Source: a virus | Reading direction: 5' to 3' (one strand) | Length of the DNA stretch: 62,622 nt | IMG/VR virus record: IMGVR_UViG_3300043395_001957 | Span: 1-62,622 of that record | Part shown: positions 4,167-49,453 of the stretch, in pieces | Numbering within the stretch: position 1 is the stretch's first letter | Layout of the letters: every line of letters starts with the position of its first letter | The notes under the pieces: model-generated | Databases searched by the model: none | Told to the model about the DNA's origin: nothing | What the model saw: only the letters and a program-made list of their open reading frames with translations | Position numbers and translations under genes: made by a program

Positions 4167-5018
4167 TTAAAATAAGTGAAGGTAGTCCGAATGATTTCCC
4201 CAATAGGGATGTGTGCTTATTAAATTATCCTTTTTATAAATCGAAAAATGTGATGTAAAGTGTGAGCCGTGATTGATGTGTATAGATTGATTTGGTGCTT
4301 CCCATTGCTTTCGTATCATATTTTGGTTTTCTATCATACCACTATTAGTTACTAAAGCATTACCTAATATGTGATGAAAGTGCTCTAACGCATCATCTAC
4401 TCTCATTATCATCTGATGCATAGGTTCATCATCTTGTCCCCTTTGTTGCCAACCATCTTTATTTATACCACCATAATTCATATTTGTCCAAATCTCACCA
4501 CTACCAAAATCAGGGTAATCAAAATATCCTTTTGGATACATTACATCATGCTCTAAAAACGAAACATATTCATAATCATTCATTGTTTTAGCAGTGTATA
4601 TACATTGTAATATCTGCAACAATTGATTTAAATGTGATGAGTTTCTATTCCAACTAATTACTTCGTGAAATGGATTAGAATCTATTCTATTCCAAACACA
4701 CGTTACAATATCAGCTTTACCTTCTGCTGCTATTTGTATAGTTTCTAATGATTTTTTTACTGCCGGATGGTTGGTTGTATCGTTTGAATACCAAATTCCT
4801 AGTCTATTTGTTTCCGATTTAGGATATACAAATGTAGAGCCTTCCATAATACGCTCTCTAACCCCATTTATTTCCATTTCTAGCCACTTTATAACGCCTG
4901 GCTTAGTATCACCTATCAAATTATTATCTGCTCTTAAAATCAATCTATCACCCTTTATAAGCGATTTAATTTTATCTAAGCAATCAACATCACCATATGT
5001 TGCATAGGTTATATTCAT
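4167..5018 (-). CDS. Glycosyltransferase-like protein with EHD motif (A)
   Basis: A 283-residue protein in two parts. Residues 1-70 form a beta-rich domain (ITYATYGD, LILRADNNLIGDTKPGVIKWLEMEI) that resembles the DUF3395 pattern. Residues 70-283 look like a GT-A type fold: NRLGIWYSND, an internal Rossmann-like region, then YVSFLEHDVMYPKGY with E156-H157-D158 where a DxD metal site would sit. The C-terminus is rich in His (HINHGSHFTSHF, YWGNHSDYLHLF). It overlaps the upstream DSD glycosyltransferase by 4 bases (ATGA). Glycosyl transfer is inferred from fold-like features only; sugar and target are unknown. Confidence 0.6.
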   Translation of the reverse strand: MNITYATYGDVDCLDKIKSLIKGDRLILRADNNLIGDTKPGVIKWLEMEINGVRERIMEGSTFVYPKSETNRLGIWYSNDTTNHPAVKKSLETIQIAAEGKADIVTCVWNRIDSNPFHEVISWNRNSSHLNQLLQILQCIYTAKTMNDYEYVSFLEHDVMYPKGYFDYPDFGSGEIWTNMNYGGINKDGWQQRGQDDEPMHQMIMRVDDALEHFHHILGNALVTNSGMIENQNMIRKQWEAPNQSIHINHGSHFTSHFSIYKKDNLISTHPYWGNHSDYLHLF

Positions 5019-5956
5019 TTCAATACTGATTTAGATGCTGTTTTTTGTATCCAATCCCAATATCTTCTACTTGCTGTATTCTCTTTGATATTTAATTCTT
5101 TATCATATGGTAATTCGCTCATCCATTGTGCTTTGTAAAATAGTCCATCATTTGGTGATGTTACACCAGCGTTATGCATAATGTTTAATCTAAAATAATC
5201 CGCTTCTGATGAAGTTCCCCAACTGAAATCAAATTCAGGCAAACAATTTGTTTTCCACCCCCTTCTCCATGCACCCCAAAGAACTGCCCACATATCCGAA
5301 CACCATATTTGTAGTTCGTGATAAGTAGGATTCTCCTTTTTGATTTCGTTATTTAATTCAGTTACCTGTTTGAATAATTGTTCACAATCTCTTTCAACTC
5401 TATCCCAAAATTCATAATCAACACCTTTCATCAAATACTGCGCACCAATAGCGTTCATTTCGTTGTCTCTAATCAATGATTCTGGCAAATCCATAATCTC
5501 ACACATCTTATCAATTATCTGCTGACCTTTGCCAACTATGTAAGAATGTGCTATATACCAACGGGTATCTGAACCATACCATTCTTCATCGTTTCTTATA
5601 TCAGTACTAATCCATTCAGAAATTGATTTAGAAAATATGATATCTGAATCGTGATAGAAGATTGCTTCATCTTTTAAATAAGGATGAGCTGCCCAATGTT
5701 GTTTAAGAATATTAGGTCTGATTGATGAAATGTAATGTTTGGTTTCTCTCGTATCGTTATAGAAAAAGAAACGAGCCGGATATCCGTTAGCCAACTTTGA
5801 CCATTCTTCAGGTATTACTCCGTTTTGTTTCCAACATACAATATCTATGAAGTTTGGATTTACACCCATCTCCATAAAATTATTTAGCATTACTTCAACT
5901 TGCCAAGCGTAATATAGTGTGGCTGGTTGTGCGCATACAAATCTTAATTCTTTCAT
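5015..5956 (-). CDS. DxD-containing glycosyltransferase-like protein (A)
   Basis: A 313-residue protein with a GT-A style layout. The N-terminal strand FVCAQPATLYYAWQVEVMLNN is followed by RPNILKQHW and then EAIFYHDSDIIFSK with D103-S-D105 as the likely metal-binding DxD. The spacing of YxxWQ, RPxxxxxxW and the acidic motif recalls the hydroxyproline arabinosyl- and peptidyl-serine galactosyl-transferase families, a resemblance I see by eye and cannot test. It lies directly downstream of the Thr-linker tail genes and overlaps the EHD protein. Unit B has a close copy at 37574-38539. Confidence 0.65.
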   Translation of the reverse strand: MKELRFVCAQPATLYYAWQVEVMLNNFMEMGVNPNFIDIVCWKQNGVIPEEWSKLANGYPARFFFYNDTRETKHYISSIRPNILKQHWAAHPYLKDEAIFYHDSDIIFSKSISEWISTDIRNDEEWYGSDTRWYIAHSYIVGKGQQIIDKMCEIMDLPESLIRDNEMNAIGAQYLMKGVDYEFWDRVERDCEQLFKQVTELNNEIKKENPTYHELQIWCSDMWAVLWGAWRRGWKTNCLPEFDFSWGTSSEADYFRLNIMHNAGVTSPNDGLFYKAQWMSELPYDKELNIKENTASRRYWDWIQKTASKSVLK

Positions 5957-7285: not shown

Positions 7286-8788
7286 TTATATACTTCCTGA
7301 ATATCTATTTCTATCTGCATTCCAGTTTTGTGATATTTCACCTGCAGATAATCTTCTATTATAAATTCTACAAATACCAACATTACCACTCCATTGTGCG
7401 TCTTGACCATCATTTCCAGGCATTAATAAACTACCTGTTCCATACAAACTCACATAATTACCTAAACCATAATTTGCAACAAAATTACCATCTATATATA
7501 TTTCATTTAGTTTTGTTACAGATGATGTAACAAATGTAGATGATGTTACAGCTGTAATTACAACCTGATGCCAATTATTTACAGATAATTCTGCATTTAA
7601 TCCGTTTTTATATAATGTAAATGAGGCTGTGTCTGGTGTTCCACCTGTTGGTGAAGTTCCTCTAATTAAAGATGATGCCGAACCTGAATAAAGTCCTAAA
7701 ACGTCAGAATATAACGCTGAATTAATTTCTCTATCATCAGGTACACCTTCTGAACCAAATATAAAGTTATTAAATATAGCAGGTGATGAAGATGTTTCAG
7801 TTCCGAAGAAAGGTCTATTAATCCATATTTCAAATGTACTTCCTGTTACTGTAGTAACATCACTAAATAATCTATTTGTTCTAATAGCAGAGCCGGTAAA
7901 GTTCATATATGATGCATTACCATTCGATACAAAATTTGTACTACCAGAAATTATACTACCAGTAACTAATGAAACTAAATCAGTAATAGATGAGCCACTA
8001 CCAGGATAAGATGGGGTTTTACCAAAATCATAATACAATTGTATAGATTGTGTTACATAATCTCCAGGTGCAGTTGTTGTAGTTGTAGTAGTTGGACCTG
8101 CTGTGGTTGTTGTGGTGCTCGTAGTCGATGTAGTACTTGTAGTGCTCGTAGTCGATGTAGTAGTTGTTGTGGTACTAGTAGTAGAAGTAGTTGTCGTTGT
8201 TGGAGCAGCAGTTGTCGTAGTTGTTGTTATGACAGACGATGTAAAATTAAAACCACACAATAATTCATTTAAAGTAAGTGTATCAGGTAATATCGGCCCT
8301 AACAATTGTAAATTACAAGTGCCATCTTTTAGAGAATAATCATTAATTGCTCTTAGATGATAATAGTTACCTCTGAAGTTGACAACATCATTCAATTCCA
8401 TTTTAGTATAATCAGCCAATGGAATAATTGCAGAGCAATTTACTAATCTCGTTTTAGGATTGTATAAAAGTGATATATAAGTTTCCCAATAATTTGTATA
8501 AAGTGAGTTCGCTGGTACTGTACCATATGATGCAGCTTCATTATTAAAAAGTAAAGATAAAGAGTTTTCGGTTGGAAAACTGCCACTTACAACATTATAA
8601 TTATCAAAATATGGAAACTTATCTTGCGCATAAGTAACACCACCGATTGCTGCTGAACCGCTTTCTAACCACCATTGTTCACACTCTACCATTCCATTAA
8701 AAAAGAATAAACGTGGTAACACTCTCGATGGTTTGTATGCTGCATCGGAGATATAAGTTGGTATGTATATAGGAATTATCTGACTCAT
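7286..8788 (-). CDS. Tail fibre/receptor-binding candidate with LamG-like domain (A)
   Basis: I start this gene at the ATG reading MSQIIPIYIPTYIS, 2 bases after the stop of the upstream gene, because it aligns with MAKNKIYIPTFIS in unit B; an earlier in-frame ATG would overlap the upstream gene by about 100 bases. The 500-residue protein has a conserved N-terminal part (YWETYISLLYNPKTRL, ELNDVVNFRGNYYHLRAINDYSL). A long Thr linker (roughly 190-255) leads to a C-terminal LamG/concanavalin-like domain (SIQLYYDFGKTPSYPGSGSS, FEIWINRPFF, NEIYIDGNF, VGICRIYNRRLSAGEI). Such lectin domains often bind cell-surface glycans, so this is a good receptor-binding candidate. Confidence 0.75.
   Translation of the reverse strand: MSQIIPIYIPTYISDAAYKPSRVLPRLFFFNGMVECEQWWLESGSAAIGGVTYAQDKFPYFDNYNVVSGSFPTENSLSLLFNNEAASYGTVPANSLYTNYWETYISLLYNPKTRLVNCSAIIPLADYTKMELNDVVNFRGNYYHLRAINDYSLKDGTCNLQLLGPILPDTLTLNELLCGFNFTSSVITTTTTTAAPTTTTTSTTSTTTTTTSTTSTTSTTSTTSTTTTTAGPTTTTTTTAPGDYVTQSIQLYYDFGKTPSYPGSGSSITDLVSLVTGSIISGSTNFVSNGNASYMNFTGSAIRTNRLFSDVTTVTGSTFEIWINRPFFGTETSSSPAIFNNFIFGSEGVPDDREINSALYSDVLGLYSGSASSLIRGTSPTGGTPDTASFTLYKNGLNAELSVNNWHQVVITAVTSSTFVTSSVTKLNEIYIDGNFVANYGLGNYVSLYGTGSLLMPGNDGQDAQWSGNVGICRIYNRRLSAGEISQNWNADRNRYSGSI
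8066..8230 (-). repeat. Long Thr-codon linker of the LamG tail protein (A)
   Basis: About 165 bases of ACN repeats with TCT/AGT and GCTCCA-like breaks, encoding Thr runs broken by Ser, AAP and AGP. In unit B the matching tract (about 41925-42240) is roughly twice as long. Confidence 0.85.
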
Positions 8789-8789
8789 A

Positions 8790-10811
8790 TTATGGGCAAT
8801 TATAGAATGAACCAATAGTACCATTGAAATCAATGAATGATGCGTACTTACTATAATAGTAAGGGAATCCCCACTTCCAATAGCTATATCCACCATTAAA
8901 TGGAGTAGTTAGGCTTGAATCGGTAAACAATTGTGTTACTGCTGCTGGATTATTTGTAGCTGCATATACAACAGTTGGATAGTAATAAGTGTTACTACAA
9001 GCAGCAGTATCACTTCCCCATCCTGCATTACCAATTACATATGCGTAAGATGTAACAGGCGGAGTAATACCACCGACAGAGCCTGATAAACCTGTTCCTG
9101 CTATTCTAACTAATGGTGTTGAAGCAAATGTTGTTTTAACTTCAAACTTACCTTGTGAGAAGAAGTTTGTTGTATCAGTATAATATGTTTTACCATATTC
9201 TCTATTTGCTTCTTTACTGAATTGTTGAGAAAGATAGTCTTGGTCTAATGTATCACCAAAGTTAAGTTGATTCACAGCTAAGTTATTCGCTGGAATTACT
9301 TCTATCTTCTCATCTAAGTTTATGTATTTATTGAAATCTTTTACTTGTCCTTTTTTGTACCAATTATTAAATGTTTCAATTATGAACTCATTTGATTTGG
9401 TTTTATTAGGGTATATTACTAAGTTAAACTTCTTTTGTAAACCTGTAATGAAATCAATCTGCTTAATTCCATTTGTACCATACGGCATATTCGATGGAAT
9501 ATCTACAATCCTACCATCAGCAGCTTGGTTTACTTGCGTAATTTGTATATACGATTTCGTAGTATTATCAGGGTCCAGAGTTACAACTGGCTGTTGAGTT
9601 GGTGCTGCAAAATTAGGTCTTTGTCTTATTTGGAAATAATATGTACCTGCAGGAATGCCATACAATTTAAATTGTGTTTGTAATTCGTATGTTTGATTTA
9701 TACCACCCGTTCTGCTATTTTGTAATTGGTCAAAGAATATAATGTAAGATTGTATAGCAGTTAAACCATATGCAGTTGAACTACCTGTTTCTACCATTTG
9801 TATCTGCCACGTACCATTAGCACTAAAAGTACCAGGCATATTATTTACAGAACAACTTACATTCACATTTAGATTTAAAATACCTTCTAAATTTGTTTTT
9901 TGTTCTACTCTATATGCACCATTCTGATAAAATCCTTGCGGGTCTGATAATGTATTATACCAAGGTAAAGTAACAAAAGTATTTGATGGTAAAGTAATAT
10001 CAGTCATACCACTACCACTAATTGCACCTACCTTTATTTTACCATAGGTTTCCAAATCAACTTCGTTGAACTCTGGGTATTTTAGTGAATGGTTACAAAT
10101 CATATATACATCATTCATAAATGGTTCATTCATAAATGATGATGAGTATGTATATCCAGCTTCTTCAAAGATTGCATCTAATACTTTTTTAACTCTGATT
10201 GCAGGTTTAAAGTTTTGTACAGTTAGTGCACCATCGTTATCATTCATTCCAAATGTTTGGAAATCACCTTGTGCGTATTGATATCCCGTACCATAATCGG
10301 CAAGTGGATAAACTATATCACCATTGAAAAGATTACCATTCCAACTTGCTGAAATATTATCGTAAGATGCAGTATGGTTATACTTTTGTAGTGATGTTAA
10401 GTTTGTTAAATAATTTCTATTGATATCTCTACCAAAAGATGATAGAGTACCATATATTGTTACTTCATATGAATCGATAAATTTATTTGCTAATACATTC
10501 ACCTTATTCAGCTGAAGATATCCGTTTGACAAATATACTGAGTCAAAATCAAAGTAAGCTGGTACTTTAATATTTGTTGCGAATAAGAATGGATTATCAA
10601 TTGATATATCATACACATGCTCAAAGAAAGCATTATTTACCTTTGTACCTGGCAAAGTAATTTGACGAGTAAAATCAGATGGTAATACTCCTATATCAAA
10701 TAAACCTGTTACATTGTTAGATAACTGAATATCCTCATCTGCAAAAAGGTCCAATTGTTGCCCATTGGCTATTAATCGAAAGGTAAATCCTTGCGTTGAT
10801 ATAACTCCCAT
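8790..10811 (-). CDS. Tail/baseplate structural protein (A)
   Basis: A 673-residue protein homologous to 42798-44912 in B. The first ~170 residues are well conserved (VTGLFDIGVLPSDFTRQITL, FFEHVYDISI, NPFLFAT, GYLQLNKVNV, FIDSYEVTI). A middle part contains IPSNMPYGTNGIKQIDFITG and KKFNLVIYPNKTK, and a block at about 500-580 has NLAVNQLNFGDTLD and REYGKTYY. The C-terminal ~100 residues differ from B. The order next to connectors and fibres suggests a tail-tip or hub component; no enzymatic motif seen. It ends 2 bases before the next start. Confidence 0.7.
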   Translation of the reverse strand: MGVISTQGFTFRLIANGQQLDLFADEDIQLSNNVTGLFDIGVLPSDFTRQITLPGTKVNNAFFEHVYDISIDNPFLFATNIKVPAYFDFDSVYLSNGYLQLNKVNVLANKFIDSYEVTIYGTLSSFGRDINRNYLTNLTSLQKYNHTASYDNISASWNGNLFNGDIVYPLADYGTGYQYAQGDFQTFGMNDNDGALTVQNFKPAIRVKKVLDAIFEEAGYTYSSSFMNEPFMNDVYMICNHSLKYPEFNEVDLETYGKIKVGAISGSGMTDITLPSNTFVTLPWYNTLSDPQGFYQNGAYRVEQKTNLEGILNLNVNVSCSVNNMPGTFSANGTWQIQMVETGSSTAYGLTAIQSYIIFFDQLQNSRTGGINQTYELQTQFKLYGIPAGTYYFQIRQRPNFAAPTQQPVVTLDPDNTTKSYIQITQVNQAADGRIVDIPSNMPYGTNGIKQIDFITGLQKKFNLVIYPNKTKSNEFIIETFNNWYKKGQVKDFNKYINLDEKIEVIPANNLAVNQLNFGDTLDQDYLSQQFSKEANREYGKTYYTDTTNFFSQGKFEVKTTFASTPLVRIAGTGLSGSVGGITPPVTSYAYVIGNAGWGSDTAACSNTYYYPTVVYAATNNPAAVTQLFTDSSLTTPFNGGYSYWKWGFPYYYSKYASFIDFNGTIGSFYNCP

Positions 10812-24334: not shown

Positions 24335-24364
24335 ATTAAATCCTATTATTTAAATATCATAACA

Positions 24365-24372
24365 GTTTAACA
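24365..24372 (-). promoter_or_regulatory. TGTTAAAC element before terS (A)
   Basis: The minus strand has CTAC, 16 bases, TGTTAAAC, about 30 bases before the terS ATG. B has CTAC, 15 bases, TGTTACAT at 57843-57850. The spacing is shorter than at the best sites. Confidence 0.35.
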
Positions 24373-24414
24373 TCTACCTATTGGGTTTGTAGTTGATGGA
24401 TATATATGTATATA

Positions 24415-24549
24415 TTATTCAAAGAGCCCTTTCCAAACTGTCAATAGCATATCCATAGCCATTGCTAATATACTAAATCCAAATAGTAATCCTATATACG
24501 CTAATATTAATTCCCATAGTGGGTCTCTTTCCTTTTTATTATCTTTCAT
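24415..24549 (-). CDS. 44-residue single-membrane-span protein (A)
   Basis: ATG at 24549, stop TAA at 24415. The product reads MKDNKKERDPLWELILAYIG and then LLFGFSILAMAMDMLLTVWKGLFE: a charged N-terminus and one hydrophobic segment of about 22 residues. Unit B encodes a related 35-residue peptide at 57900-58007 in the same place before terS. Conservation in place and composition supports a real gene. A small membrane protein of this kind could serve lysis or membrane signalling, but nothing shows which. Confidence 0.7.
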   Translation of the reverse strand: MKDNKKERDPLWELILAYIGLLFGFSILAMAMDMLLTVWKGLFE

Positions 24550-24682
24550 CCCTTTCTACTCTTTCTAATAACCAAAATCCACATATGTTATCATCTTCGT
24601 CTACTACGACTATGTGATGGTTATGTGTATATGGTATTGTGTTCATATAAATCCTTTTATCTTTTACCCACATCCAGTCCAT
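24539..24682 (-). CDS. 47-residue hypothetical protein (A only)
   Basis: Starts 6 bases after the glycosyltransferase stop and overlaps the 44-residue membrane gene by 11 bases. Product MDWMWVKDKRIYMNTIPYTH followed by HHIVVVDEDDNICGFWLLERVERDER. A later in-frame ATG would give 35 residues. Good fit into the gene chain is the only evidence. Confidence 0.55.
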   Translation of the reverse strand: MDWMWVKDKRIYMNTIPYTHNHHIVVVDEDDNICGFWLLERVERDER

Positions 24683-24687
24683 TTGTA

Positions 24688-25296
24688 TTACTGGTATTTG
24701 CTGAACCATAATCTTTTATCTTCTTCCTTTATTGGATTGAATTCTGCTCTTCCGCTTGTTTGTTCGGATTCTCCACTCATTTTCCAATGCGTTATTTCAT
24801 AGTTCTGCTTTCCGCTTTTGTTGAACAACCAATCATCTCCGTAATGTACTTTTAAATCTTCAGGTATTTCTACATAAGAGTTTTTATGGATAGCAAATAC
24901 ACAACCATAACAATTAGGTCTATTCTTAATCGGTGCTACTCCACCACTACGATGTGGTCCTTGCCAACAGGTCACACCTGCTCCTATCATTCCTCTATCT
25001 TCCGTAATGTATTCTTCTAACTTATCTACAAAACTCCAATCGGTTTCCACATCATCGTTTACAAAAAGAAGTTTGTCGAACTTTGCTAATCGGTATCCTT
25101 TGTTCCATGCAGGGTTTACATAGGTGTTCTTACCTTCTCTTATGTGTACTACCTTTTTGAAATCTTCTAAATGTATTTCATCTGGTGTGTTATCTATTAC
25201 GATTATCTCTCCTACGGATTTGATTTCGTTTAGTGCTCTTATTGTTTCTATCCCTTCTCTTCCTTGCCACATTGTGGGCATTATTACTGATATCAT
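24688..25296 (-). CDS. GT2-like glycosyltransferase (A only)
   Basis: A 202-residue protein with a GT-A layout: MISVIMPTMWQGREGIETIRAL, EIIVIDNTPD, NPAWNKGYRLA, LLFVNDDVETDW (DDV as the metal motif) and GDDWLFNK with a likely catalytic acidic pair. It would transfer a sugar from a nucleotide donor; acceptor unknown. It sits 1 base behind the methyltransferase as a two-gene insert between the zinc-finger protein and terS, where unit B has a different small gene. Confidence 0.8.
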   Translation of the reverse strand: MISVIMPTMWQGREGIETIRALNEIKSVGEIIVIDNTPDEIHLEDFKKVVHIREGKNTYVNPAWNKGYRLAKFDKLLFVNDDVETDWSFVDKLEEYITEDRGMIGAGVTCWQGPHRSGGVAPIKNRPNCYGCVFAIHKNSYVEIPEDLKVHYGDDWLFNKSGKQNYEITHWKMSGESEQTSGRAEFNPIKEEDKRLWFSKYQ

Positions 25297-25297
25297 A

Positions 25298-25843
25298 TTA
25301 GTCGATTTTAGATTTGCTTCTTATTCCCCAAAAGTAAAGGTCATCAGGGTTTCTATTTTCTTTAAATTCGTATTCACTAAACCATATATCCAATGGAAAG
25401 TGTTCGAAATCTTCTCTATTTAAATTTTTATAATAATCGTTTTCGATTTGTGATGTGAATGGTGAATCTTGCGGTGATGTTCTTCTCGTTCCATGCTCTG
25501 GTCTATTTGCTGATGCACAACTGAATACTACCATACCGCCTTCCTTTGTTAATCTTACCATATTTGCGAATGTCAAAACCCAATACTCATCGTGCTCAAA
25601 ACATTCTGATGAAATGGTTACATCGAATAGTTTGTTTGATTTGAATTCGTGTCCTCTACTTACTACATCTACATTTGGTCCATTACCAATATCAATGCCA
25701 GTATATTCCGCATTGGTAAAAAGATATCTATTGTTTCCATTGATGTCCAAAGAGCCTACATCTAATACTCTTACACCACTAAATTTGTGTGGGAATCTAT
25801 CCCTTACGCTTTGCATAAATGCTTGTTGTTGCGAATGCGCCAT
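25298..25843 (-). CDS. SAM-dependent methyltransferase (A only)
   Basis: A 181-residue class I methyltransferase. Motif I is VRVLDVGSLDINGNNRY, the acidic strand-2 end is YTGIDIGNGPNVDVV, and FDVTISSECFEHDEYW and MVRLTKEGGMVVFSCA follow. No DNA-recognition domain is visible. Its coupling to the GT2 gene suggests modification of a sugar or host surface molecule rather than DNA, which is inference. Confidence 0.8.
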   Translation of the reverse strand: MAHSQQQAFMQSVRDRFPHKFSGVRVLDVGSLDINGNNRYLFTNAEYTGIDIGNGPNVDVVSRGHEFKSNKLFDVTISSECFEHDEYWVLTFANMVRLTKEGGMVVFSCASANRPEHGTRRTSPQDSPFTSQIENDYYKNLNREDFEHFPLDIWFSEYEFKENRNPDDLYFWGIRSKSKID

Positions 25844-31372: not shown

Positions 31373-31694
31373 AATCAGGATGGTCTTCTTCCGGAATACA
31401 GTTTGGCACAGAAACTCCACCCATATCCTTCATACCCAATTGGCGGTATCCACTTTGGCACGGGTCTTCACCTTCTTCAGCTAATAAATTAATACCTTTG
31501 AATTTAGTATCATAAGCTACTCTAGCCATTACTTTAGCTGATGTATCTTTTATCTTACTCATATTTTCTTTTTCCCAATATGAGTAGCAAATAGCAGCTG
31601 AAACATCTTGTTCTTTACCTGATGCTATTTCTTCTCCTATACAACGGCTGATGAACTCTTGTTCAGTTTCGCCTGCTCTTACATTTACTGGCAT
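31362..31694 (-). CDS. MPVN small protein (A side)
   Basis: A 110-residue protein: MPVNVRAGETEQEFISRCIG then EE-AAICYSYW, a pattern of small structural-region proteins in Bacteroidota phages. The C-terminal half (DPCQSGYRQLGMKD...VPNCIPEED) has two Cys like the B copy (DACWEGYEAIG...VPNCVP). Its first codons lie in the shared 136-base stretch. Function not known; the AAICYSYW motif is sometimes attached to structural or protease-associated proteins. Confidence 0.8.
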   Translation of the reverse strand: MPVNVRAGETEQEFISRCIGEEIASGKEQDVSAAICYSYWEKENMSKIKDTSAKVMARVAYDTKFKGINLLAEEGEDPCQSGYRQLGMKDMGGVSVPNCIPEEDHPDFKD

Positions 31695-31786
31695 TAGTTA
31701 TCTACTTTATATGTTTTATTATTAAAACGAACTTTATATACTGTATTAAAGTCCAATGTTCTCCAATCTCCATCTAATCCAACAAC
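31651..31786. repeat. 136-base stretch shared exactly by units A and B (internal copy)
   Basis: This stretch spans the start of the 110-residue MPVN gene and the end of the next 110-residue gene. It matches 62496-62622 and continues as 1-126. Mismatches flank it: base 31650 is g where 62495 is t, and base 31787 is a where base 127 is g. It is the point at which unit A sequence changes into unit B sequence. Confidence 0.9.
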
Positions 31787-35584: not shown

Positions 35585-36457
35585 TTAAAACAAGTGGATG
35601 TAATCCGAATGATTTCCCCAATATGGGTGTTCAGTAAATAAATTATCTTTTTTGTAGATAGAATAGTGTGATGTAAAGTGTGAGCCGTGATTGATATGAA
35701 TATTAGGATGTTCTGCATTCCACTCATTCATTTTTAATTGTGGTTCTAATAATCCACTATTAGTTACCAATGCATTTGGTAGAAGCGATTCAAAATGCTT
35801 TATAGCATCATCAAACAACATTGTTAATTGTGATGTAGGTTTATCGTTTTGTCCACGTGGCTGAAATCCATCTTTATTCATTCCTATATAATTCATATTA
35901 GCAAGAATACCCTCATCAAAATCAGGGTAATCAAAATATCCTTCAGCATAAACTAAATCATGCTCTAAAAAACTTACATATTTGTAATCACCACTTTGTC
36001 TTGCTGTATATAGTAATTGTAGTACTTGCAGTATTTGATTCAAATGTGATGATGTTTGTGTCCAAGCAATACACTCATAAAATGGATTGTGTGGTTCGTG
36101 TTTCCACATACACGTTAATATATCTGCTTTACCTTCTGCTGCTTTACGAATACTTTCTAACGATGCTCTAATAGCAGGATAGATTCTTTCGTTTATATTG
36201 TTTGAATAGAATATACCTAAACGATTTGTTTTAGGTTTAGGTATTGTAAGTAAAGAACCTTCTCTAACTTCTTCAGTTACTAATTCACCATCTATTTCTG
36301 CTTCAATTTTTAAATACTTAACAGTACCAACTTGCGGGTCTCCGCATATGTTATTATCGGCTCTAACTAATAAACGGCCGTTTACTACTTTATCACGTAT
36401 TTGTTGTGTGCAATCTCTATCACCATATACTGCTGATTTTATCTCCATAGATGCCAT
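35585..36457 (-). CDS. Glycosyltransferase-like protein with EHD motif (B)
   Basis: A 290-residue copy of the unit A EHD protein: N-terminal DUF3395-like domain (KSAVYGDRDCTQQI, LLVRADNNICGDPQVGTVKYL), NRLGIFYSNN, YVSFLEHDLVYAEGYFDYPDF, and the His-rich end HINHGSHFTSHYSIYKKDNL. It is the last gene of a four-gene overlapping cassette and overlaps the FkbM gene by 19 bases. Confidence 0.6.
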   Translation of the reverse strand: MASMEIKSAVYGDRDCTQQIRDKVVNGRLLVRADNNICGDPQVGTVKYLKIEAEIDGELVTEEVREGSLLTIPKPKTNRLGIFYSNNINERIYPAIRASLESIRKAAEGKADILTCMWKHEPHNPFYECIAWTQTSSHLNQILQVLQLLYTARQSGDYKYVSFLEHDLVYAEGYFDYPDFDEGILANMNYIGMNKDGFQPRGQNDKPTSQLTMLFDDAIKHFESLLPNALVTNSGLLEPQLKMNEWNAEHPNIHINHGSHFTSHYSIYKKDNLFTEHPYWGNHSDYIHLF

Positions 36458-36963
36458 ACGCCTACTCTGTTTATATCTTCGTTACCTAACTGATAAAGTT
36501 GATGATTAGTAAATCCCCATTCAACCATCTTTTGTTCACATAAGATACGAGTAGGGTCATTATGATATTCAATTGCTATTTCATCTACAAATTCAATCAT
36601 TTCTTTTGTAACATTTTGAAAGTGTATTTCAGCACCTTCAATATCACATTTGATAACCTGTGGTTTATAATGTTCTAATAAATCTTCTATTTGCTTATCA
36701 GCATTAACACATAATTGAAATGTATAATATATACCTTTGTTTCCATACAATTGATGATACTTCTCAATATCATGTGCAGCGCAATCAAATCCAATTAATT
36801 TACTTGCACCTTTAGAAACAAAATATTCAGATGATGATAACCATCCTTCATTCCATGTACTATCCCAAAATGAACAGCCCATGTCCATTACAATTTTGTT
36901 TTCACAATTTAGAAATCTCCAATGGATTTCAGGGTTTTCTGATGTTATTTTTTCTATTTGCAT
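36439..36963 (-). CDS. FkbM-family methyltransferase (B only)
   Basis: A 174-residue methyltransferase. Residues 24-33 (IVMDMGCSFW) form the SAM-binding strand and loop. VIKCDIEGAEIHF at 103-115 is the FkbM hallmark, followed by FVDEIAIEYH. FkbM enzymes usually O-methylate sugars or small molecules. It sits between the oxygenase and the EHD glycosyltransferase with overlapping ends, so it probably works on the same glycan or protein target. Confidence 0.8.
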   Translation of the reverse strand: MQIEKITSENPEIHWRFLNCENKIVMDMGCSFWDSTWNEGWLSSSEYFVSKGASKLIGFDCAAHDIEKYHQLYGNKGIYYTFQLCVNADKQIEDLLEHYKPQVIKCDIEGAEIHFQNVTKEMIEFVDEIAIEYHNDPTRILCEQKMVEWGFTNHQLYQLGNEDINRVGVWHLWR

Positions 36964-37577
36964 AATTCGTAGTATCCTCCTATATCAAATTTTACTTTTG
37001 TATTAATCGCTTCACCTTCTTGCACACTCCACTTACTAAATGGAACAATTCTAAAATCCACAGAAACCCTACTCCTGTTCGTTTGGTTGAGTTTATTTCC
37101 GTGAGTTAACCGAACACCTTCCCACATAATAAACTCTCCGTATTGAGCTTCTAATGGGGTATAATCACCCTTATCTTCTTCACTCTCTGCCCAAATAGTA
37201 TTGGTATCAAAAGCATCAGTAAAAGGTAAAAAGAAATTAATCTCTGCTTGGTTATGATTATATTGTTTATCCTTATGCCATTCACCAACACCTACATTGT
37301 TTGGTGCTTGTATTCTGAATGTTGGTATTTTTTGATACACAATTGGTTCGCCGAATAGTGGCATTACCTGTTCTTTAACAAAATCATCGTATATTGGTTT
37401 CATATACTGAAAATTATCATAGTATTTTCTATGCACTTCAGTTTTTTGGTCATTTTCTCTTTTAAGTAAGTCAAATTGATATTGTTTATGCAACATATTT
37501 AACTCCTTTGTACCATAAATCAACCCTAATACTTCCAAAAATGGATAAGTTTGGGTATTATAATCTAATTTTATCAT
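36954..37577 (-). CDS. 2-oxoglutarate/Fe(II) oxygenase-like protein (B only)
   Basis: A 207-residue protein with the iron triad spacing of 2OG dioxygenases: WHKDKQYNH (H101, D103), distal LTHGN (H159) and a 2OG-binding Arg in RSRVSVDFR (about R168/R170). A jelly-roll reading is supported by alternating strands (AEINFFLPFTDAF, FIMWEGVRLTHG). Such enzymes hydroxylate amino acids, peptides or sugars. Overlaps of 4 bases upstream and 10 bases downstream tie it to the glycosyltransferase and FkbM genes. Confidence 0.75.
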   Translation of the reverse strand: MIKLDYNTQTYPFLEVLGLIYGTKELNMLHKQYQFDLLKRENDQKTEVHRKYYDNFQYMKPIYDDFVKEQVMPLFGEPIVYQKIPTFRIQAPNNVGVGEWHKDKQYNHNQAEINFFLPFTDAFDTNTIWAESEEDKGDYTPLEAQYGEFIMWEGVRLTHGNKLNQTNRSRVSVDFRIVPFSKWSVQEGEAINTKVKFDIGGYYELCK

Positions 37578-38539
37578 AACAATTTACTTTTTTGTGCTGT
37601 TTTTTGAATCCATTCCCAATATTTTTTACTTGCAGTTTCATTTTTTATATCTAATTCAACATTATATGGTAAAGAGTTCATATATTCAGCTTTATAAAAA
37701 AATCCATCTTTTGAAGATGTTACGCCTGCATTGTGCATTATATTCATTCTATTGAAATCTAATTCACCTGATGTACCCCAACTGAAATCAAATTCAGGTA
37801 AACAATTTGTTTTCCATTCTCTTCTCCATGCTCCCCATAATACTGCCCACATATCAGCGCACCATATTTGTAATTCGTGGTAAGTAGGATTATCTTTTTT
37901 GATTTCGTTGTTTAAATCAGTTACCTGTTTAAATAATTGTTCACAATCTCTTTCAACTCTATCCCAAAATTCATAATCAACATTTTTCATCAAATATTGC
38001 GCACCAATAGCGTTCATTTCGTTGTCTTTAATCAACGATTCTGGCAAATCGGTAATCTCACACATTTTATCAATTATCTGCTGACCTTTGCCAACTATGT
38101 AAGAATGCGCTATATACCAACGGGTGTCTGAACCATACCAATCATCATCTATGATAATTTGTTTGTTTATCCACTCATTTATTGGTTTAGAAAATATGAT
38201 ATCTGAATCGTGATAGAATATAGCATCATCTTTTAGATAAGGATGTGCTGCCCAATGTTGTTTAAGAATGTTAGGTCTGATTGATGAAATGTAATGTTTA
38301 GTTTCTCTCGTATCATCATAGAAAAAGAAACGTGCTGGATACCCGTTAGCCAATTTAGACCATTCTTCGGGTATCACTCCATTTTGCTTCCAACATACTA
38401 TATCAATGAAATTTGGGTTAACACCCATCTCCATAAAGTTGTTTAACATTACTTCTACTTGCCACGCATAGTAGAGTGTTGCAGGCTGTGCGCAAATAAA
38501 TCTTAATTGCTTATCCGCATAAATTTGTATGCCATTCAT
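37574..38539 (-). CDS. DxD-containing glycosyltransferase-like protein (B)
   Basis: A 321-residue copy of 5015-5956, with the same FICAQPATLYYAWQVEVMLNN start, RPNILKQHW and AIFYHDSDIIFSK DxD motif. The N-terminus is seven residues longer (MNGIQIYADKQL). A TGTTAAATA element stands upstream, so the four-gene modification cassette could be expressed on its own. It is preceded by the Thr-linker tail gene. Confidence 0.65.
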   Translation of the reverse strand: MNGIQIYADKQLRFICAQPATLYYAWQVEVMLNNFMEMGVNPNFIDIVCWKQNGVIPEEWSKLANGYPARFFFYDDTRETKHYISSIRPNILKQHWAAHPYLKDDAIFYHDSDIIFSKPINEWINKQIIIDDDWYGSDTRWYIAHSYIVGKGQQIIDKMCEITDLPESLIKDNEMNAIGAQYLMKNVDYEFWDRVERDCEQLFKQVTDLNNEIKKDNPTYHELQIWCADMWAVLWGAWRREWKTNCLPEFDFSWGTSGELDFNRMNIMHNAGVTSSKDGFFYKAEYMNSLPYNVELDIKNETASKKYWEWIQKTAQKSKLL

Positions 38540-38580: not shown

Positions 38581-40821
38581 TTATAAACAACCACCATCAC
38601 ATTGAACTTGCAAGTCCATATATAAGTTAGTTCCAACATCACCTGATACAACTGTATATCCAGGAGAAACATACGATGGTATTGAACCATTGTTTTGACA
38701 AGCTGCGTCTGTTATTTCACCTGTTACAACAATATTCGTATAAGTGCTTCCACCACCAGTACATTGGTCAGCATTACATCCAACACTAATCACATCACCA
38801 ACATAGACAGTATAGGTTCCAGATGCCGTATTATTTCTTGTTTCAACAGATACAGAATTTATATATAAATCGTATATACCTTGCCCACCAGCAACTTCAC
38901 TAAAACTCCAATATAAAGTAGCAGATGCACCAGTAGTTGTTGTAGTAGTCGGTGGTACAGTCGTAGTGGTAGTAGTTGGTGGTACAGTGGTTGTTGTAAC
39001 ACAATTACACGAAGTTCCACCATATGTTACGAATGAAATAGTTGCACCTACACCAAATAGTGAGCCGTTTTGTAAACAATCATTAATAACTTGTGGTCCT
39101 ATACCAAATGTTAAGTAAATAGTATTTCCACAGCAATCTACATATCTTACATCACCTGCTGAATCAACTTCAAAACTTACTGATGTTACACAAGCAGATG
39201 TTGTAGTGGTTGTAGTTGGTGCTAGTGTTGTAGTTGTAGTAGTCGGCGCTGCGGTTGTAGTGGTAGTAGTCGGTGCTGCAGTTGTGGTTGTTGTAGTTAC
39301 ACCACATGCAGTATTACAATTTATAGAATTACCAACAGTTGTCATTATAATTGCAGGTGAACAAGGACTAAATAATTGTGTAAAGTTTTTATATACAAAA
39401 CCAGTTATTGATTGTGGTTTATAATATCTGTTTGATGTTACAATTGAACTACCTGCAGGGAATGCAACACATACGGCACTTTGTACAAAAGTACAAGGGT
39501 CACAACTATATTCATCTGCCTCATAATAATCATATGGTGATGCAGTAGTTGTAGTAGTTGTAGGTACTTGTGTAGTTGTTGTTGTAGTTGGAGCTTGTGT
39601 AGTTGTTGTTGTACTTGTAGTAGTACTTGGACAAGTTCCACAAGTTAAACTCCATTGAGCGGTATCAGATGTTGGGTTTTCCGGGTCCGCTGGTCCATAC
39701 TCAACCATTACATATCTTCCGCTTGTTGATGCGAAATCATATGTGAAGTTTCCGCTTGGTGAAACATTCAATGATACTCCCCACGGACCTGGCCACGTTG
39801 CGTATCCAACCCAACCTGATGTTGCTATTAAACCAGTTGAATCGTAAAGATTGAATCTATTAGGTCTATCAATTGCATCATAAGTAAATGTACCACACTC
39901 ATTTGAAGTAGAACATACAACCTGTGTTGGGTACTGACCATATGCAGTATCAGATGTATTAAATGTTATCGTTCCATCACCACAAGAATAACAAGCTTCT
40001 GTTGTAGTAGTTGTAGTAGTTGCAGCTGTTGTAGTAGTTGTAGTAGGTGCAGCTGTTGTAGTAGTCGTAGTAGTAGTTGTACTTGTAGTGCTTGTTGTAG
40101 ATGTTGTAGTTGTGGTAGTTGTTACACAATCACAATCACTATTTTTAGTTACACTAAACCAAGTATTATTTGGAACTATTATACTTCCACTAACTAAACA
40201 AGATGTTAAACTTTTTGGATTAAAATAACTTAATAATTCAGCTTGAGGTTCACCAGTTTCACAATTTAGATAATATACAAATGCAGTATTAACTCCGTTA
40301 ATTTGTACAGTATCATTATCACAATTACATATATTGAACGAGCCTGTTCCGCATGGTACACCTAAATTTGGTATAGTGCTACAATTTCCTTGCGGTGCTA
40401 CACTACAATTTATAGTTTCTATAATTTCTCTTGCGCAAATATATCTTATTACTCCTGATGAGAAAACATGTACTCTTTGAACACCATAGCAATCTATGTA
40501 AGTAAGAGTAGCTGGATTTGCATTTCTTACTACTGAATAATTTATACATGTCGGACATAATGTTGTAGTTGTACTTGTAGTTGCTATTATATCAACAACA
40601 CTATTTCCATTACATTCAGCACCACCATTTACAACTTTTAAACAAGCAGCATTATCGGGAACAGTGACTACTACCGATGAGCCAACTGATGGCAAATAAA
40701 CATTATTACCATCTATACAAATGGTATAGTTTACACAATCCGTAGAATAGTAGACATCAAATAAAGGACCAGCATCTGCTCCTTTACCTGTTAATGTTAT
40801 TTGTTTATTTATGTTTGGCAT
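38581..40821 (-). CDS. Long modular tail protein with Thr-rich linkers (B)
   Basis: A 746-residue version of 5984-7276. The N-terminal ~80 residues match (MPNINKQITLTGKGADAGPL). Then come five or six small Cys-containing domains separated by Thr runs with AAP, QAP, VPP and LAP breaks. One domain (ACYSC...CGTCP, core DAIDRPNRFNLYDSTGLI) is shared with A but sits at another place in the chain; the others are not. The C-terminus (SATLYWSFSEVAGGQGIYDL) is new. This is direct evidence of domain gain and shuffling at linker repeats. Confidence 0.75.
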   Translation of the reverse strand: MPNINKQITLTGKGADAGPLFDVYYSTDCVNYTICIDGNNVYLPSVGSSVVVTVPDNAACLKVVNGGAECNGNSVVDIIATTSTTTTLCPTCINYSVVRNANPATLTYIDCYGVQRVHVFSSGVIRYICAREIIETINCSVAPQGNCSTIPNLGVPCGTGSFNICNCDNDTVQINGVNTAFVYYLNCETGEPQAELLSYFNPKSLTSCLVSGSIIVPNNTWFSVTKNSDCDCVTTTTTTTSTTSTTSTTTTTTTTTAAPTTTTTTAATTTTTTTEACYSCGDGTITFNTSDTAYGQYPTQVVCSTSNECGTFTYDAIDRPNRFNLYDSTGLIATSGWVGYATWPGPWGVSLNVSPSGNFTYDFASTSGRYVMVEYGPADPENPTSDTAQWSLTCGTCPSTTTSTTTTTQAPTTTTTTQVPTTTTTTASPYDYYEADEYSCDPCTFVQSAVCVAFPAGSSIVTSNRYYKPQSITGFVYKNFTQLFSPCSPAIIMTTVGNSINCNTACGVTTTTTTAAPTTTTTTAAPTTTTTTLAPTTTTTTSACVTSVSFEVDSAGDVRYVDCCGNTIYLTFGIGPQVINDCLQNGSLFGVGATISFVTYGGTSCNCVTTTTVPPTTTTTTVPPTTTTTTGASATLYWSFSEVAGGQGIYDLYINSVSVETRNNTASGTYTVYVGDVISVGCNADQCTGGGSTYTNIVVTGEITDAACQNNGSIPSYVSPGYTVVSGDVGTNLYMDLQVQCDGGCL
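38925..39005 (-). repeat. Thr/Pro linker repeat (B, last linker)
   Basis: ACN tracts with two VPP breaks encoding TTTTVPPTTTTTTVPPTTTT. Pro-containing unlike most A linkers. Confidence 0.8.
39195..39303 (-). repeat. Thr/Pro linker repeat (B, fourth linker)
   Basis: Three to four near-identical units of six Thr plus AAP or LAP, the most regular linker in the window. Confidence 0.85.
39540..39640 (-). repeat. Thr/Pro linker repeat (B, third linker)
   Basis: Units of Thr runs with QAP and QVP breaks between the shared ACYSC domain and a YEADEYSCDPC domain. Confidence 0.8.
39990..40125 (-). repeat. Thr linker repeat (B, second linker)
   Basis: Longest linker of this gene, about 45 residues with Ser, AAP and AA breaks, directly before the shared ACYSC domain. 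Confidence 0.85.
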
Positions 40822-40830
40822 AATATTATA

Positions 40831-42798
40831 TTATATACTTCCCGAATATCTTGTTTTGTCTGCGTACCAGTTTTGTGATATTTCAGCATCACTTAATGCT
40901 CTATTATATGCTCTACAAATACCAACTTTTCCACTCCAGTTTCCAGCGGGTAAATCATTACCAGGCATCATTAAACTTGCAGTTGAATATAATGATGGAG
41001 AAGATGTTTCAAATTTAGTAAATCTACCAGCTTTAACACCATCAACATAGCTATATATATTTCCATCTGAATCATCCCACTTAACAACAAATTGATGCCA
41101 ACTTCCTGTTGGTGTTAAAGCAGTTTGCAATCCATCTTGATAAGTTGTTCCGAATCCAGGATTATTAAAACCTGTAACTAAAGCTGATGAGCTATATGGT
41201 GCAGTTAATTGGTCTGTATATGTAGCTATTGCATATTCAACAGGAGAAATTGTACCATTTGAGCCAACTATAAAGTTATCAAAATCAGGTGAAGGGCTTC
41301 CATAAAAAGGTCTATTAAACCAAATTTCAAATGTAGTTGCTCTAGAACTACTTACTACATTACTAAATAATCTATTAGTTAAAATAGCAGAACCCGTGAA
41401 ATCCATATACGATGAACTACTATTTGATACAAAGTTTGTACTACCAGAAATTATACTACCTGTAACTAATGAAATTAAATCAGTAATAGATGAGCCACTT
41501 CCAGGATATGATTGTGTTTTACCGAAATCGTAATATAATTGTAATGATTGCGTAACAGCAGTAGTATTAAAATTCCATATTACTTTTATTGAAGAATACA
41601 AATCAGTATTAACCAAATTACTTACACCAATTTGATTAGAAGTTTGGCTTCCAGATGCAATCGCAAATAATAAAGTTGAATCGCCATAATACGATGCAGT
41701 CCAACTAAAATTATATGTATTATCAAATTTCACATCAGTTGCAATAGTTTGAGTTCCAGTTACATATGTGGAGCCAGTAAATAAATTATTACCTGTACCT
41801 ACTGGCGATTTATTAATCACATATAATGAAGATGGAGGAGATGTTAAATCACCCATACTACCTGTTATCACATTTAAACTACTACTTAATTCCAAAATAT
41901 ATGTTTTATTAGGTGGATTAATAGTAGTAGTTGTTGTAGTAGGTGCTACAGTTGTTGTACTAGTCGTTGTAGTTGCTGCGGTAGTCGTAGTAGTTGTACC
42001 AGCAGCAGTAGTTGTTGTTGTAGTAGGAGCAGCAGTAGTAGTTGTACTAGTAGTACTCGTAGTACTTGTAGTAGTTGTACTAGTGGTGCTCGTTGTTGTT
42101 GTAGTTGGCGCAGCTGTTGTTGTTGTGCTCGTAGTACTTGTTGTAGATGTTGTAGTAGTAGTAGGAGCAAGTGTTGTAGTAGTAGTTGGACCTGCAGTTG
42201 TAGTAGTAGTAGGGCCAGCTGTTGTAGTTGTTGTTGTTACAGTTTGTGAATCAAAATCAAACAAACAAGTTATTGTTTTATTAGCTGATGCAATTACATC
42301 TTCTAATATTGGACCTAATAATTGAATCTTACACTCACCATTAGATAAGTTGTAATCATTGATTGCACGAAGGTGATAGTAATTTCCTCTCCACTCAACA
42401 ATATCATTAAGTTCCATTTTAAAATAATCAGCAAGAGGAATAATACCTTCGCAGTTTATTAAACGAGTTTTTGGATTATAAAGTAAAGATACATATGTTT
42501 CCCAATAATTTGTATAAAGAGAACCTGTTGGAGTTGTACCATATACTGCTGGTTCATTGAAGAAAAGAAGTGAACGAGAGCCCGATGTAGGGTCTTGTCC
42601 TTCATAGTTATCAAAATAAGGAAATGAAGTTACTTCTGTAGATACAACACTACCTGTATTACCGTTTGAATATCCTTGAATATAATATGTTTCACATGCT
42701 TTTAATCCATTATAGAAATAAATGTGCGGCAGGACTCTAGCAGGTGCGTAATTCACACTACTAATAAATGTCGGTATGTATATCTTATTCTTCGCCAT
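40831..42798 (-). CDS. Tail fibre/receptor-binding candidate with LamG-like domain (B)
   Basis: A 655-residue copy of the unit A LamG tail protein. The N-terminal ~190 residues are conserved (IYIPTFIS, YWETYVSLLYNPKTRLINCEGIIPLADY). The Thr linker is about twice as long (near 190-300). An extra ~110-residue domain (TYILELSSSLNVITGSMGDL onward) lies before the LamG part (SLQLYYDFGKTQSYPGSGSS, WFNRPFYG, VGICRAYNRALSDAEISQNW). The upstream gene's stop overlaps this start by one base. Probably binds host surface glycans. Confidence 0.75.
   Translation of the reverse strand: MAKNKIYIPTFISSVNYAPARVLPHIYFYNGLKACETYYIQGYSNGNTGSVVSTEVTSFPYFDNYEGQDPTSGSRSLLFFNEPAVYGTTPTGSLYTNYWETYVSLLYNPKTRLINCEGIIPLADYFKMELNDIVEWRGNYYHLRAINDYNLSNGECKIQLLGPILEDVIASANKTITCLFDFDSQTVTTTTTTAGPTTTTTAGPTTTTTLAPTTTTTSTTSTTSTTTTAAPTTTTTSTTSTTTTSTTSTTSTTTTAAPTTTTTTAAGTTTTTTAATTTTSTTTVAPTTTTTTINPPNKTYILELSSSLNVITGSMGDLTSPPSSLYVINKSPVGTGNNLFTGSTYVTGTQTIATDVKFDNTYNFSWTASYYGDSTLLFAIASGSQTSNQIGVSNLVNTDLYSSIKVIWNFNTTAVTQSLQLYYDFGKTQSYPGSGSSITDLISLVTGSIISGSTNFVSNSSSSYMDFTGSAILTNRLFSNVVSSSRATTFEIWFNRPFYGSPSPDFDNFIVGSNGTISPVEYAIATYTDQLTAPYSSSALVTGFNNPGFGTTYQDGLQTALTPTGSWHQFVVKWDDSDGNIYSYVDGVKAGRFTKFETSSPSLYSTASLMMPGNDLPAGNWSGKVGICRAYNRALSDAEISQNWYADKTRYSGSI
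41925..42240 (-). repeat. Very long Thr-codon linker of the LamG tail protein (B)
   Basis: About 315 bases of ACN repeats with TCN, GCN-CCN and AGP breaks encoding over 100 residues, the largest low-complexity tract in the window. Confidence 0.9.
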
Positions 42799-48952: not shown

Positions 48953-49453
48953 TTATGGTATTGTCGTTGTTGTTGTAGTCGGTGCTAATGTGGTTGTAGT
49001 AGTTGGTGAAGCAGTTGTAGTTGTAGTAGCTGGTGCTGCTTGGTCCCAATACTTAAATGTATTATTAGTATCCGCACTTATAAATGTTTCCTCATATGGT
49101 ATTTGGTTTACATAATCAGGTTTTTCTACTGATTGTGATGCAAATACTTGCAAAGAACCATGCCATACCGGGTCTAAATAAGTAAATGGTGTTGTTGATG
49201 ATGTAATAGCAGGTGTTAAGAACATTCTATACTCATCACCTATATTTACAGTCAATGCAATATCCAAATCAAAAGATATATCAACCATGCTTTCGCATTG
49301 GTTATAAGACCATTGACCAGGACTATTTAAAAAAGAATAGTTCTCTTGCGTAAGCATGTTTTGAACATCAACTCTTAAATAGTTACTGCCAGACGGTATT
49401 TGAGCCGTTCTTATCGTGTAATTATTGTATCCTCCGAGAAAATATGTTAGCAT
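48953..49453 (-). CDS. Small virion protein with Thr-linker tail (B)
   Basis: A 166-residue version of 14813-15175. The first ~125 residues are homologous (MLTYFLGGYNNYTIRTAQIP, CESMVDI, SQSVEKPDYVNQIPYEE). After that it adds KYWDQAAPATTTTTASPTTT-type repeats and stops inside the repeat, with no domain after it. The A copy ends before the repeat. Acquisition of a linker without a cargo domain is unusual. Confidence 0.7.
   Translation of the reverse strand: MLTYFLGGYNNYTIRTAQIPSGSNYLRVDVQNMLTQENYSFLNSPGQWSYNQCESMVDISFDLDIALTVNIGDEYRMFLTPAITSSTTPFTYLDPVWHGSLQVFASQSVEKPDYVNQIPYEETFISADTNNTFKYWDQAAPATTTTTASPTTTTTLAPTTTTTTIP
48958..49040 (-). repeat. Terminal Thr/Pro repeat of the small virion protein (B)
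   Basis: ACN tract with ASP and LAP breaks forming the very C-terminus of the gene; same sequence type as the linkers near 39200 and 42000. Confidence 0.8.

Follow-up and report, generated by a model that had tools for sequence, protein, structure and literature searches.

The IMG/VR virus record IMGVR_UViG_3300043395_001957 (62,622 bp, the whole of which is hereafter called the window) consists of two co-linear halves, A and B, each of ~31 kb. In both halves two neighbouring genes (gene 1 and gene 2) encode tail-associated proteins with tracts rich in threonine (Thr), and just downstream of them lies a gene, here termed B0, from the phrog_4417 family of unknown function. We propose, with a probability of roughly 0.64, that these tracts are mucin-like linkers joining exchangeable modules, and that they are maintained as the substrate of B0, a putative glycosyltransferase. 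According to this proposal the tracts of ACN codons would encode flexible linkers bearing small beta-rich and lectin-like modules; each of the two genes would retain its own N-terminal anchor, and the modules behind it would be added, lost, repeated and exchanged between phages. The joints would lie at linkers because joins are presumably tolerated or selected there, rather than because the linkers were special recombination sites, and the tracts would be kept because they serve as the substrate of the dedicated enzyme, most likely of the GT-A type, whose O-glycosylation of the Thr runs could create extended, protected stalks. In phages of Bacillota the same pair of enzyme and substrate would be applied to capsid and tail-tube proteins, whose C-termini bear poly-Thr tails. 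The exchange of modules would probably rely on the general recombination functions of phage or host, with crossovers placed in the conserved flanking DNA and inside or next to the linkers, and the outcome would be an altered binding tip, e.g. a LamG lectin in place of a glycine-rich adhesin.

Pairing of B0 with poly-Thr tracts

37574..38539, minus strand: B0, member of phrog_4417 (the 'prophage pi2 protein 34' family), putative DxD glycosyltransferase (PHROG E-value 1.1e-59 over 2-291/293)
5015..5956, minus strand: B0 homolog of phage A (86% at the amino acid (aa) level)

Relatives of the window were collected in five IMG/VR scans, which yielded 105 non-redundant contigs (labelled L) with 113 Thr-linker open reading frames (ORFs) and 48 multi-member segment families (labelled m). 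In each of the 35 contigs with B0, the last Thr-linker ORF is followed by this gene on its 3' side at a distance of no more than ~90 bp, and those contigs that possess tracts of at least 12 aa and lack B0 all end before the position of B0. Among 44 informative gene-2 loci, 30 have both the tract and B0 and 14 have neither, with no discordant case. On the tree of the anchor each of the two traits changes 8 times, and the independent pairs agree in 8/8 cases; for instance, L025-L027 contain both the linker and B0, and L023, with flanks ~95% identical, contains neither. The presence of the tract is explained better by this pairing with B0 than by a role as a recombination site. A separate IMG/VR scan for B0 revealed 71 distinct loci with a poly-Thr ORF at most 200 bp away in 71/71, albeit many of these loci, in particular those from Bacillota, are closely related prophages, and therefore the effective number is smaller.

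Homologs of B0 (21-37%) were also found in 74 cultured phage records, mostly from Lactobacillus, Enterococcus, Staphylococcus and Lactococcus, as well as in the Chryseobacterium phage MA9V-3. All 15 sampled B0-positive cultured phages (14 by a strict rule) encode nearby virion proteins with Thr-rich tails or linkers, e.g. the tail protein of phiFL1A (..TTTTTSTTTTTTSSTTTTTTTQASSK) or a protein of phage 1706 (..VTTTTTTTTTTHHD); the repeats are looser in LP65 and in SAC12B, where they take the form TTVKPTTVAP. In the Bacillota phages the tracts are placed at the C-termini of the capsid and tail-tube proteins, as in iLp84, which bears Thr tails on both. Within the genus Sandinevirus, CHPC836 possesses B0 and has Thr tails on its major capsid protein (MCP) and major tail protein (MTP), whereas bIL286 has no B0, and its MCP and MTP, identical to those of CHPC836 at 377/425 and 176/203 positions, both lack the tails. 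Likewise, both B0 and the tails are missing from phiFL3A (a congener of phiFL1A), phiFL4A, TP901-1 and A2.

B0 and the poly-Thr tracts could also travel together as a genetic cassette with no functional link between them, and they indeed lie side by side and are jointly acquired or lost (e.g. L023 vs L025), which could partly explain their co-occurrence. We regard this explanation as improbable: the MTP tail, encoded several genes away from B0, follows B0 too (CHPC836/bIL286), the pairing spans unrelated capsid, tail-tube, Ig-domain and linker proteins from Bacteroidota-type and Bacillota phages, and it persists while the tract sequences differ. Co-occurrence, adjacency, the CHPC836/bIL286 absence pair and the DxD motif are seen in the sequences; sugar transfer and its benefit to the phage are predicted from them.

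As to the type of the enzyme, the residues D111-x-D113 and a late H269 are invariant across 20 diverse members of the B0 family, and one of 22 members shows a weak match to the Pfam family Gly_transf_sug/DXD (PF04488, E-value 0.014). Three genes follow B0 downstream:

36954..37577, minus strand: 2OG-Fe(II) oxygenase-like protein, weakly similar to a 'sporadic carbohydrate cluster' model (NCBIfam TIGR04324, E-value 3e-14, 53 bits against a curated cut-off of 150)
36439..36963, minus strand: possible FkbM-type methyltransferase (NCBIfam TIGR01444, E-value 0.0018, below the cut-off)
35585..36457, minus strand: conserved protein of unknown function, glycosyltransferase-like by eye only, with a homolog in A at 4167-5018

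The content of this cassette (35585-37577) differs between A, B and their relatives. From the DxD motif with the late His, the sugar-gene-like neighbours, the mucin-like character of the linkers and the known glycans of mycobacteriophages, we infer that B0 is a GT-A-type glycosyltransferase that would O-glycosylate the Thr tracts.

Several observations weigh against our proposal. The relatedness of many of the 71 loci and the linkage of the two genes have been mentioned above. Well-supported branches of the anchor tree hold only 4 of the 8 co-changes (4/4 agree), too few for a sign test to attain significance at 0.05. Few phages served as B0-negative controls, and one of them, bIL286, contains short Thr-rich stretches in two further ORFs. 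The distant relatives L093 and L096/L097 (the latter two being near copies) contain short tracts of 7-11 aa (9-11 aa in the comparison with B0) and no homolog of B0; it is possible that they are exceptions to the pairing or users of another enzyme. Finally, Pfam and NCBIfam profile searches matched none of the phrog_4417 members to a glycosyltransferase model above its curated cut-off, and the phrog_4417 profile finds no relative in the PDB.

The last two results would also fit an alternative in which the tracts are the substrate of B0, and B0 is some other modifying enzyme, for example one that transfers phosphate or nucleotidyl groups and belongs to another class, or one with peptidase-like activity. 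DxD motifs occur in other metal-dependent enzymes too, which likewise counts for this alternative. However, the combination of DxD and the late His with Thr acceptors and weakly sugar-gene-like neighbours fits a GT-A enzyme, one member of the family has the aforementioned Pfam match, and mycobacteriophage virions bear glycans, attached by phage glycosyltransferases, at the C-termini of capsid and tail-tube proteins, according to the accounts in PMC12619734 and PMC11256854, which cite Freeman et al. 2023. We consider a different enzymatic activity of B0 unlikely, yet not negligible.

Two related phages and their modular proteins

31651..31786, no strand: exact 136-bp repeat at the join between phages A and B, also common to the contig ends

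Most genes of B have a homolog in A, in the same order, with 43-99% aa identity. A 117-bp repeat common to both ends of the contig (1-117 and 62506-62622) is contained in the 136-bp repeat at the join. The contig L033, a phage A from another metagenome, matches the window at 100% through window position 1 and then continues into the opposite end of A itself (window 32020 to 29176, 99.5%). Phage B was found by itself as L004, whose metagenome also contains, on a contig of its own, a second copy of phage A (L053). Since L033 closes on A's own end and B exists alone, we conclude that the two halves are related but distinct phages brought together in assembly, a concatemer being less likely. The size and the gene count of the record are therefore misleading, and differences in domains between A and B represent a comparison between two related phages. 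Recognizable structural genes include those for the portal, the terminase large subunit, the head maturation protease and a neck-type protein. The host of these phages is presumably a member of Bacteroidota, and this can be said only tentatively because the nearest cultured portal (Nonlabens phage P12024L) is just 33% identical and because neither the anchor nor the module m4 has a relative among GTDB contigs. Gene 1 and gene 2 themselves have no match among cultured phages.

Genes and modules of phage B:
38581..40821, minus strand: gene 1, Thr-linker modular tail-associated protein of 746 aa with five linkers (ORF and module parsing)
40582..40821, minus strand: gene 1 N-terminal anchor m3, aa 1-80, modelled as a beta-sandwich (predicted local distance difference test, pLDDT, ~90)
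40561..40581, minus strand: gene 1 Thr linker 1, 7 aa
40000..40122, minus strand: gene 1 Thr linker 2, 41 aa
39625..39999, minus strand: module m7 (ACYSC..CGTCP), whose DNA homology to L071 and L069 spans linker to linker
39544..39624, minus strand: gene 1 Thr linker 3, 27 aa
39298..39543, minus strand: module m8, with relatives in gene 2 (L013, L040), gene 1 (L013) and a third gene (L032)
39199..39297, minus strand: gene 1 Thr linker 4, 33 aa
38998..39198, minus strand: module m6, with a near-identical copy in gene 1 of L127 and tandem copies in L036
38932..38997, minus strand: gene 1 Thr linker 5, 22 aa; DNA homology to L077/L079 begins at most 1 base from its first base
38584..38931, minus strand: C-terminal module m4, modelled as a beta-sandwich, 91-93% aa identity in L076-L078
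40831..42798, minus strand: gene 2, 655 aa, with an anchor, a Thr linker and a LamG-like C-terminus
42244..42798, minus strand: gene 2 N-terminal anchor, aa 1-185, kept in all relatives
41923..42243, minus strand: single Thr linker of gene 2, 107 aa
40834..41922, minus strand: gene 2 C-terminal region, LamG/ConA-like (phrog_8510, E-value 4e-9)
48953..49453, minus strand: third Thr-tract gene, ending in a dangling 22-aa Thr tract

Genes of phage A:
5984..7276, minus strand: gene 1, [m3]-[FN3-like]-[m7]-[m23], with three Thr linkers
7286..8896, minus strand: gene 2, with an anchor, a 52-aa Thr linker and a LamG-like region

The order of modules in gene 1 of B is [m3]-[m30]-[m7 ACYSC]-[m8]-[m6]-[m4]. 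The linkers consist of 72% Thr, in short runs interrupted by S and by AAP, LAP or AGP. Our analysis confirmed the two Thr-linker genes of B and their counterparts in A, with the shared elements named in the preliminary description of this region: the anchors (62% aa identity in gene 1, 59% in gene 2), the ACYSC..CGTCP module (74%) and the LamG-like C-terminus (55%; in the A copy it matches Pfam Laminin_G_3 with E-value 2e-5, below the curated cut-off of that model). The domains of A and B were said to differ in number and order; they do differ in number and identity, but the shared ones are not permuted, and a changed order or a change of gene is seen only among the relatives. Two further points need correction: A and B are two phages rather than one genome, and the tracts do not form clean DNA repeats. 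The third Thr-tract gene has a homolog without a Thr tract in phage A (14813-15175), and in L015, L017 and L061 the tract is followed by the module m20 (~150 aa).

Among the relatives, 24 module families are found in at least two neighbour contexts. The gene-2 anchor m1 and the gene-1 anchor m3 are nearly always N-terminal, and it is the number, order and gene of the later modules that vary. Thus m4, the last module of gene 1 in B, stands behind the gene-2 anchor in L079, L082, L083, L085-L088 and L091; m2 is present in up to eight repeats in gene 1 of L121, and is attached to the gene-2 anchor in L032 and L124; m6 and m5 occur in tandem in L036; and in L010 the gene-1 anchor m3 is fused straight onto the gene-2 anchor. 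The movement of modules within and between genes, proposed earlier, is therefore borne out by the contexts of m4, m8 and m2 in related contigs. Apparent shuffling could in principle be an artefact of metagenome assembly at repetitive linkers, given that the window is itself a fusion of two phages across a repeat common to both and that a 120-bp difference in L016 (see below) could be an assembly collapse. This seems highly improbable to us: each of several architectures was recovered from more than one assembly (L008/L009, L036/L037, L077/L078/L081, L089/L090, L033 and half A of the window, L004 and half B), and the swapped modules have no long DNA repeat in common.

The structure prediction for gene 1 is confident for m3 and m4 only, with the linkers disordered; a search with this model revealed no PDB fold match at E-value ≤0.001, and seven matches to viral proteins added no function. 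The prediction for the gene-2 anchor was discarded (pLDDT 56). As listed, the start of gene 2 in A (7286-8896) overlaps the upstream gene, and the true start is probably the Met at aa 37 (MSQIIPIYIP), where the conserved protein begins. In L031 (7770-8564), which is 99.6% identical to L121, gene 1 is split into two ORFs, and ~104 extra bp are present at the border of gene 2 and gene 1, due to either an assembly error or real inactivation. Phage A also encodes, near the terminase end (24688-25843), a family 2 glycosyltransferase and a methyltransferase paired to no gene of B. The nearest cultured relative, Nonlabens phage P12024L (L129), carries ERF and YqaJ recombination genes, none of which was recognized in the phages of the window.

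Joins at the linkers and the role of their DNA

Homologous modules from different contexts cease to align close to the linkers: in most families the median distance between alignment end and linker edge is 0-5 aa (for the gene-2 anchor, a spacer of ~15 aa lies in between), and overall 53% of the alignment ends are located within 10 aa of a linker edge, compared to 10% expected under uniform placement. Similar limits are seen in DNA matches (positions 23625-25422 below are coding-strand coordinates of the halves). A matches L015 from linker 1 to linker 2 (24630-25001, 83.6%) and L071 from linker 2 to linker 3 (24943-25422, 80%), and B matches L127 (m6) from linker 4 to linker 5. The match between B and L077 (79.7%) runs from 23625, with linker 5 starting at 23626, past the stop codon into B0, and in L079, which combines the gene-2 anchor with B's m4, the homology begins at 23627. 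Swaps between close relatives exhibit the same pattern. L069 and L108 are 97% identical and share the gene-2 anchor, but the former continues into a Gly_rich_2 domain (E-value 4e-16) and the latter into Laminin_G_3 (E-value 3e-6), the breaks being placed within the linker and immediately ahead of gene 1; L092 is distinguished from L091 by the insertion, at a linker, of a 118-aa module; and L089 is a mosaic that is L086-like to the end of linker 1, then contains m10, and is L087-like from linker 2. L069 (3300021962_000673, merged contig ~7668-7993) has an extra ORF of ~110 aa (phrog_7759, of unknown function), absent from its near-twin L108, which is perhaps a chaperone or partner of the glycine-rich tip.

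The preliminary description had located the breakpoints in the ACN repeats, and both the module boundaries of relatives and the recent swap points do lie at the linkers in our alignments; linker lengths are not fixed either, and differ greatly even between near-identical phages. It had further suggested that the tracts act as recombination sites, so that homologous or unequal recombination between tracts would move the modules and would also explain why the tracts exist. Besides the position of the breakpoints and the strong differences in length of linker interiors between 97% identical genomes, many pairs of linkers are ~70-79% alike over ~100 bp, and L032, compared to L121, resembles a linker-to-linker fusion of gene 2 and gene 1. 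A few linkers contain long exact matches (49 nt in L017, 35 nt in L118), which suggest recent duplication. Moreover, in close pairs the adjacent module differs in 16/27 cases with Thr linkers vs 4/26 without, which suggests a higher rate of swaps in the raw pairs; with each genome used once, however, the difference shrinks to ~3/8 vs 0/5 (hand count).

Other data argue against such a role of the DNA. The linker tracts are composed of ACN codons in ordinary synonymous proportions (ACT.41, ACA.46, ACC.04 and ACG.10, vs.40,.50,.05 and.05 for Thr codons elsewhere in the same genes), and exact matches between linkers are mostly no longer than in synonymous shuffles. Swaps also occur at joints free of Thr: L023 and L028 differ from L025-L027 by a module switch at the end of the anchor (anchors 86-97% identical) with no Thr tract, and FN3-like modules are attached directly to gene-2 anchors in L021, L022, L048, L051 and L063. 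L016 and L017, whose genomes are 99.9% identical, differ by a 120-bp linker deletion with no repeat at its ends. In addition, B0-positive Bacillota phages bear tracts at the C-termini of capsid and tail-tube proteins, where no modules are available for shuffling. In view of the ordinary codons, the shuffle-level matches and the Thr-free swaps, the linkers are the sites where joins are found, and a driving role of their DNA stays a proposal. We therefore find the tracts doubtful as recombination sites, and prefer to regard them as linkers that would be kept as the substrate of B0.

Relation to known systems and implications

As in mycobacteriophages, the enzyme would be encoded by the phage and act on its own virion, and in the Bacillota phages the B0 gene is tied to tracts at the same sites, i.e. 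the C-termini of capsid and tail-tube proteins, with both the modification and the type of site predicted from sequence. Unlike in that system, the enzyme belongs to phrog_4417 and matches no curated glycosyltransferase family, a poly-Thr tract recognizable in the sequence would be the acceptor, and in the phages of the window this tract is located in linkers between modules of receptor-type proteins. In T-even phages, conserved glycine-rich motifs delimit the adhesin segments that are swapped (Tetart et al. 1998, as referred to in PMC12529663, ref. 66). There, as here, low-complexity motifs flank exchangeable receptor-binding segments and the boundaries of exchange lie at the motif, but the motif of the window is rich in Thr rather than Gly and is not conserved at the DNA level, and what moves here, between two genes, are entire folded modules from numerous families. 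The antireceptors of Streptococcus thermophilus phages, in which collagen-like repeats lie between the domains (PMC5601072, which cites Duplessis and Moineau 2001), are likewise tail proteins in which variable domains (involved in host range in that case) are spaced by simple repeats; the window contains no Gly-X-Y collagen, but disordered Thr-rich linkers and a dedicated enzyme gene downstream.

Diversity-generating retroelements also diversify host-binding domains of phages, yet by point mutation and not by exchange of whole modules. No reverse transcriptase gene was found among the proteins of the B half scanned with PHROGs, a scan that was not exhaustive, and this agrees with the earlier suggestion of variation independent of reverse transcription. 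Thr-rich disordered linkers between binding modules are familiar from the O-glycosylated Thr/Pro-rich linkers of modular carbohydrate-active enzymes and from mucins; here, unlike in those proteins, they belong to phage virion proteins, and the linker and the putative enzyme are encoded together.

A literature search, with subscription journals mostly outside its reach, found no report that connects virion modification with poly-Thr tracts or with 'pi2 protein 34'. So far as the searched literature shows, the pairing of phrog_4417 with poly-Thr is new, while module swapping and virion glycosylation were already known. We think it rather probable, although slightly less so than the proposal for the window itself, that phrog_4417 represents a widespread system for mucin-like glycosylation of virions, in which one family of glycosyltransferases recognizes poly-Thr wherever it is appended, in both Bacteroidota-type and Bacillota phages.

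The comparison of modules shows how the binding tips of these phages change: by means of fixed anchors, flexible joints and a common pool of exchangeable modules, with the replacement of a lectin by an adhesin between the 97% identical genomes L069 and L108 as an example of tip exchange. The pairing of a family of unknown function with poly-Thr tracts of virion proteins across very different phages constitutes a testable rule, and if our interpretation of phrog_4417 is true, glycosylated sites of virions could be read directly from the sequence. If the tracts are indeed glycosylated, sugar-coated virions would be common and recognizable by sequence, with likely effects on virion stability, on immune recognition of phages and on adhesion in mucus or biofilm.

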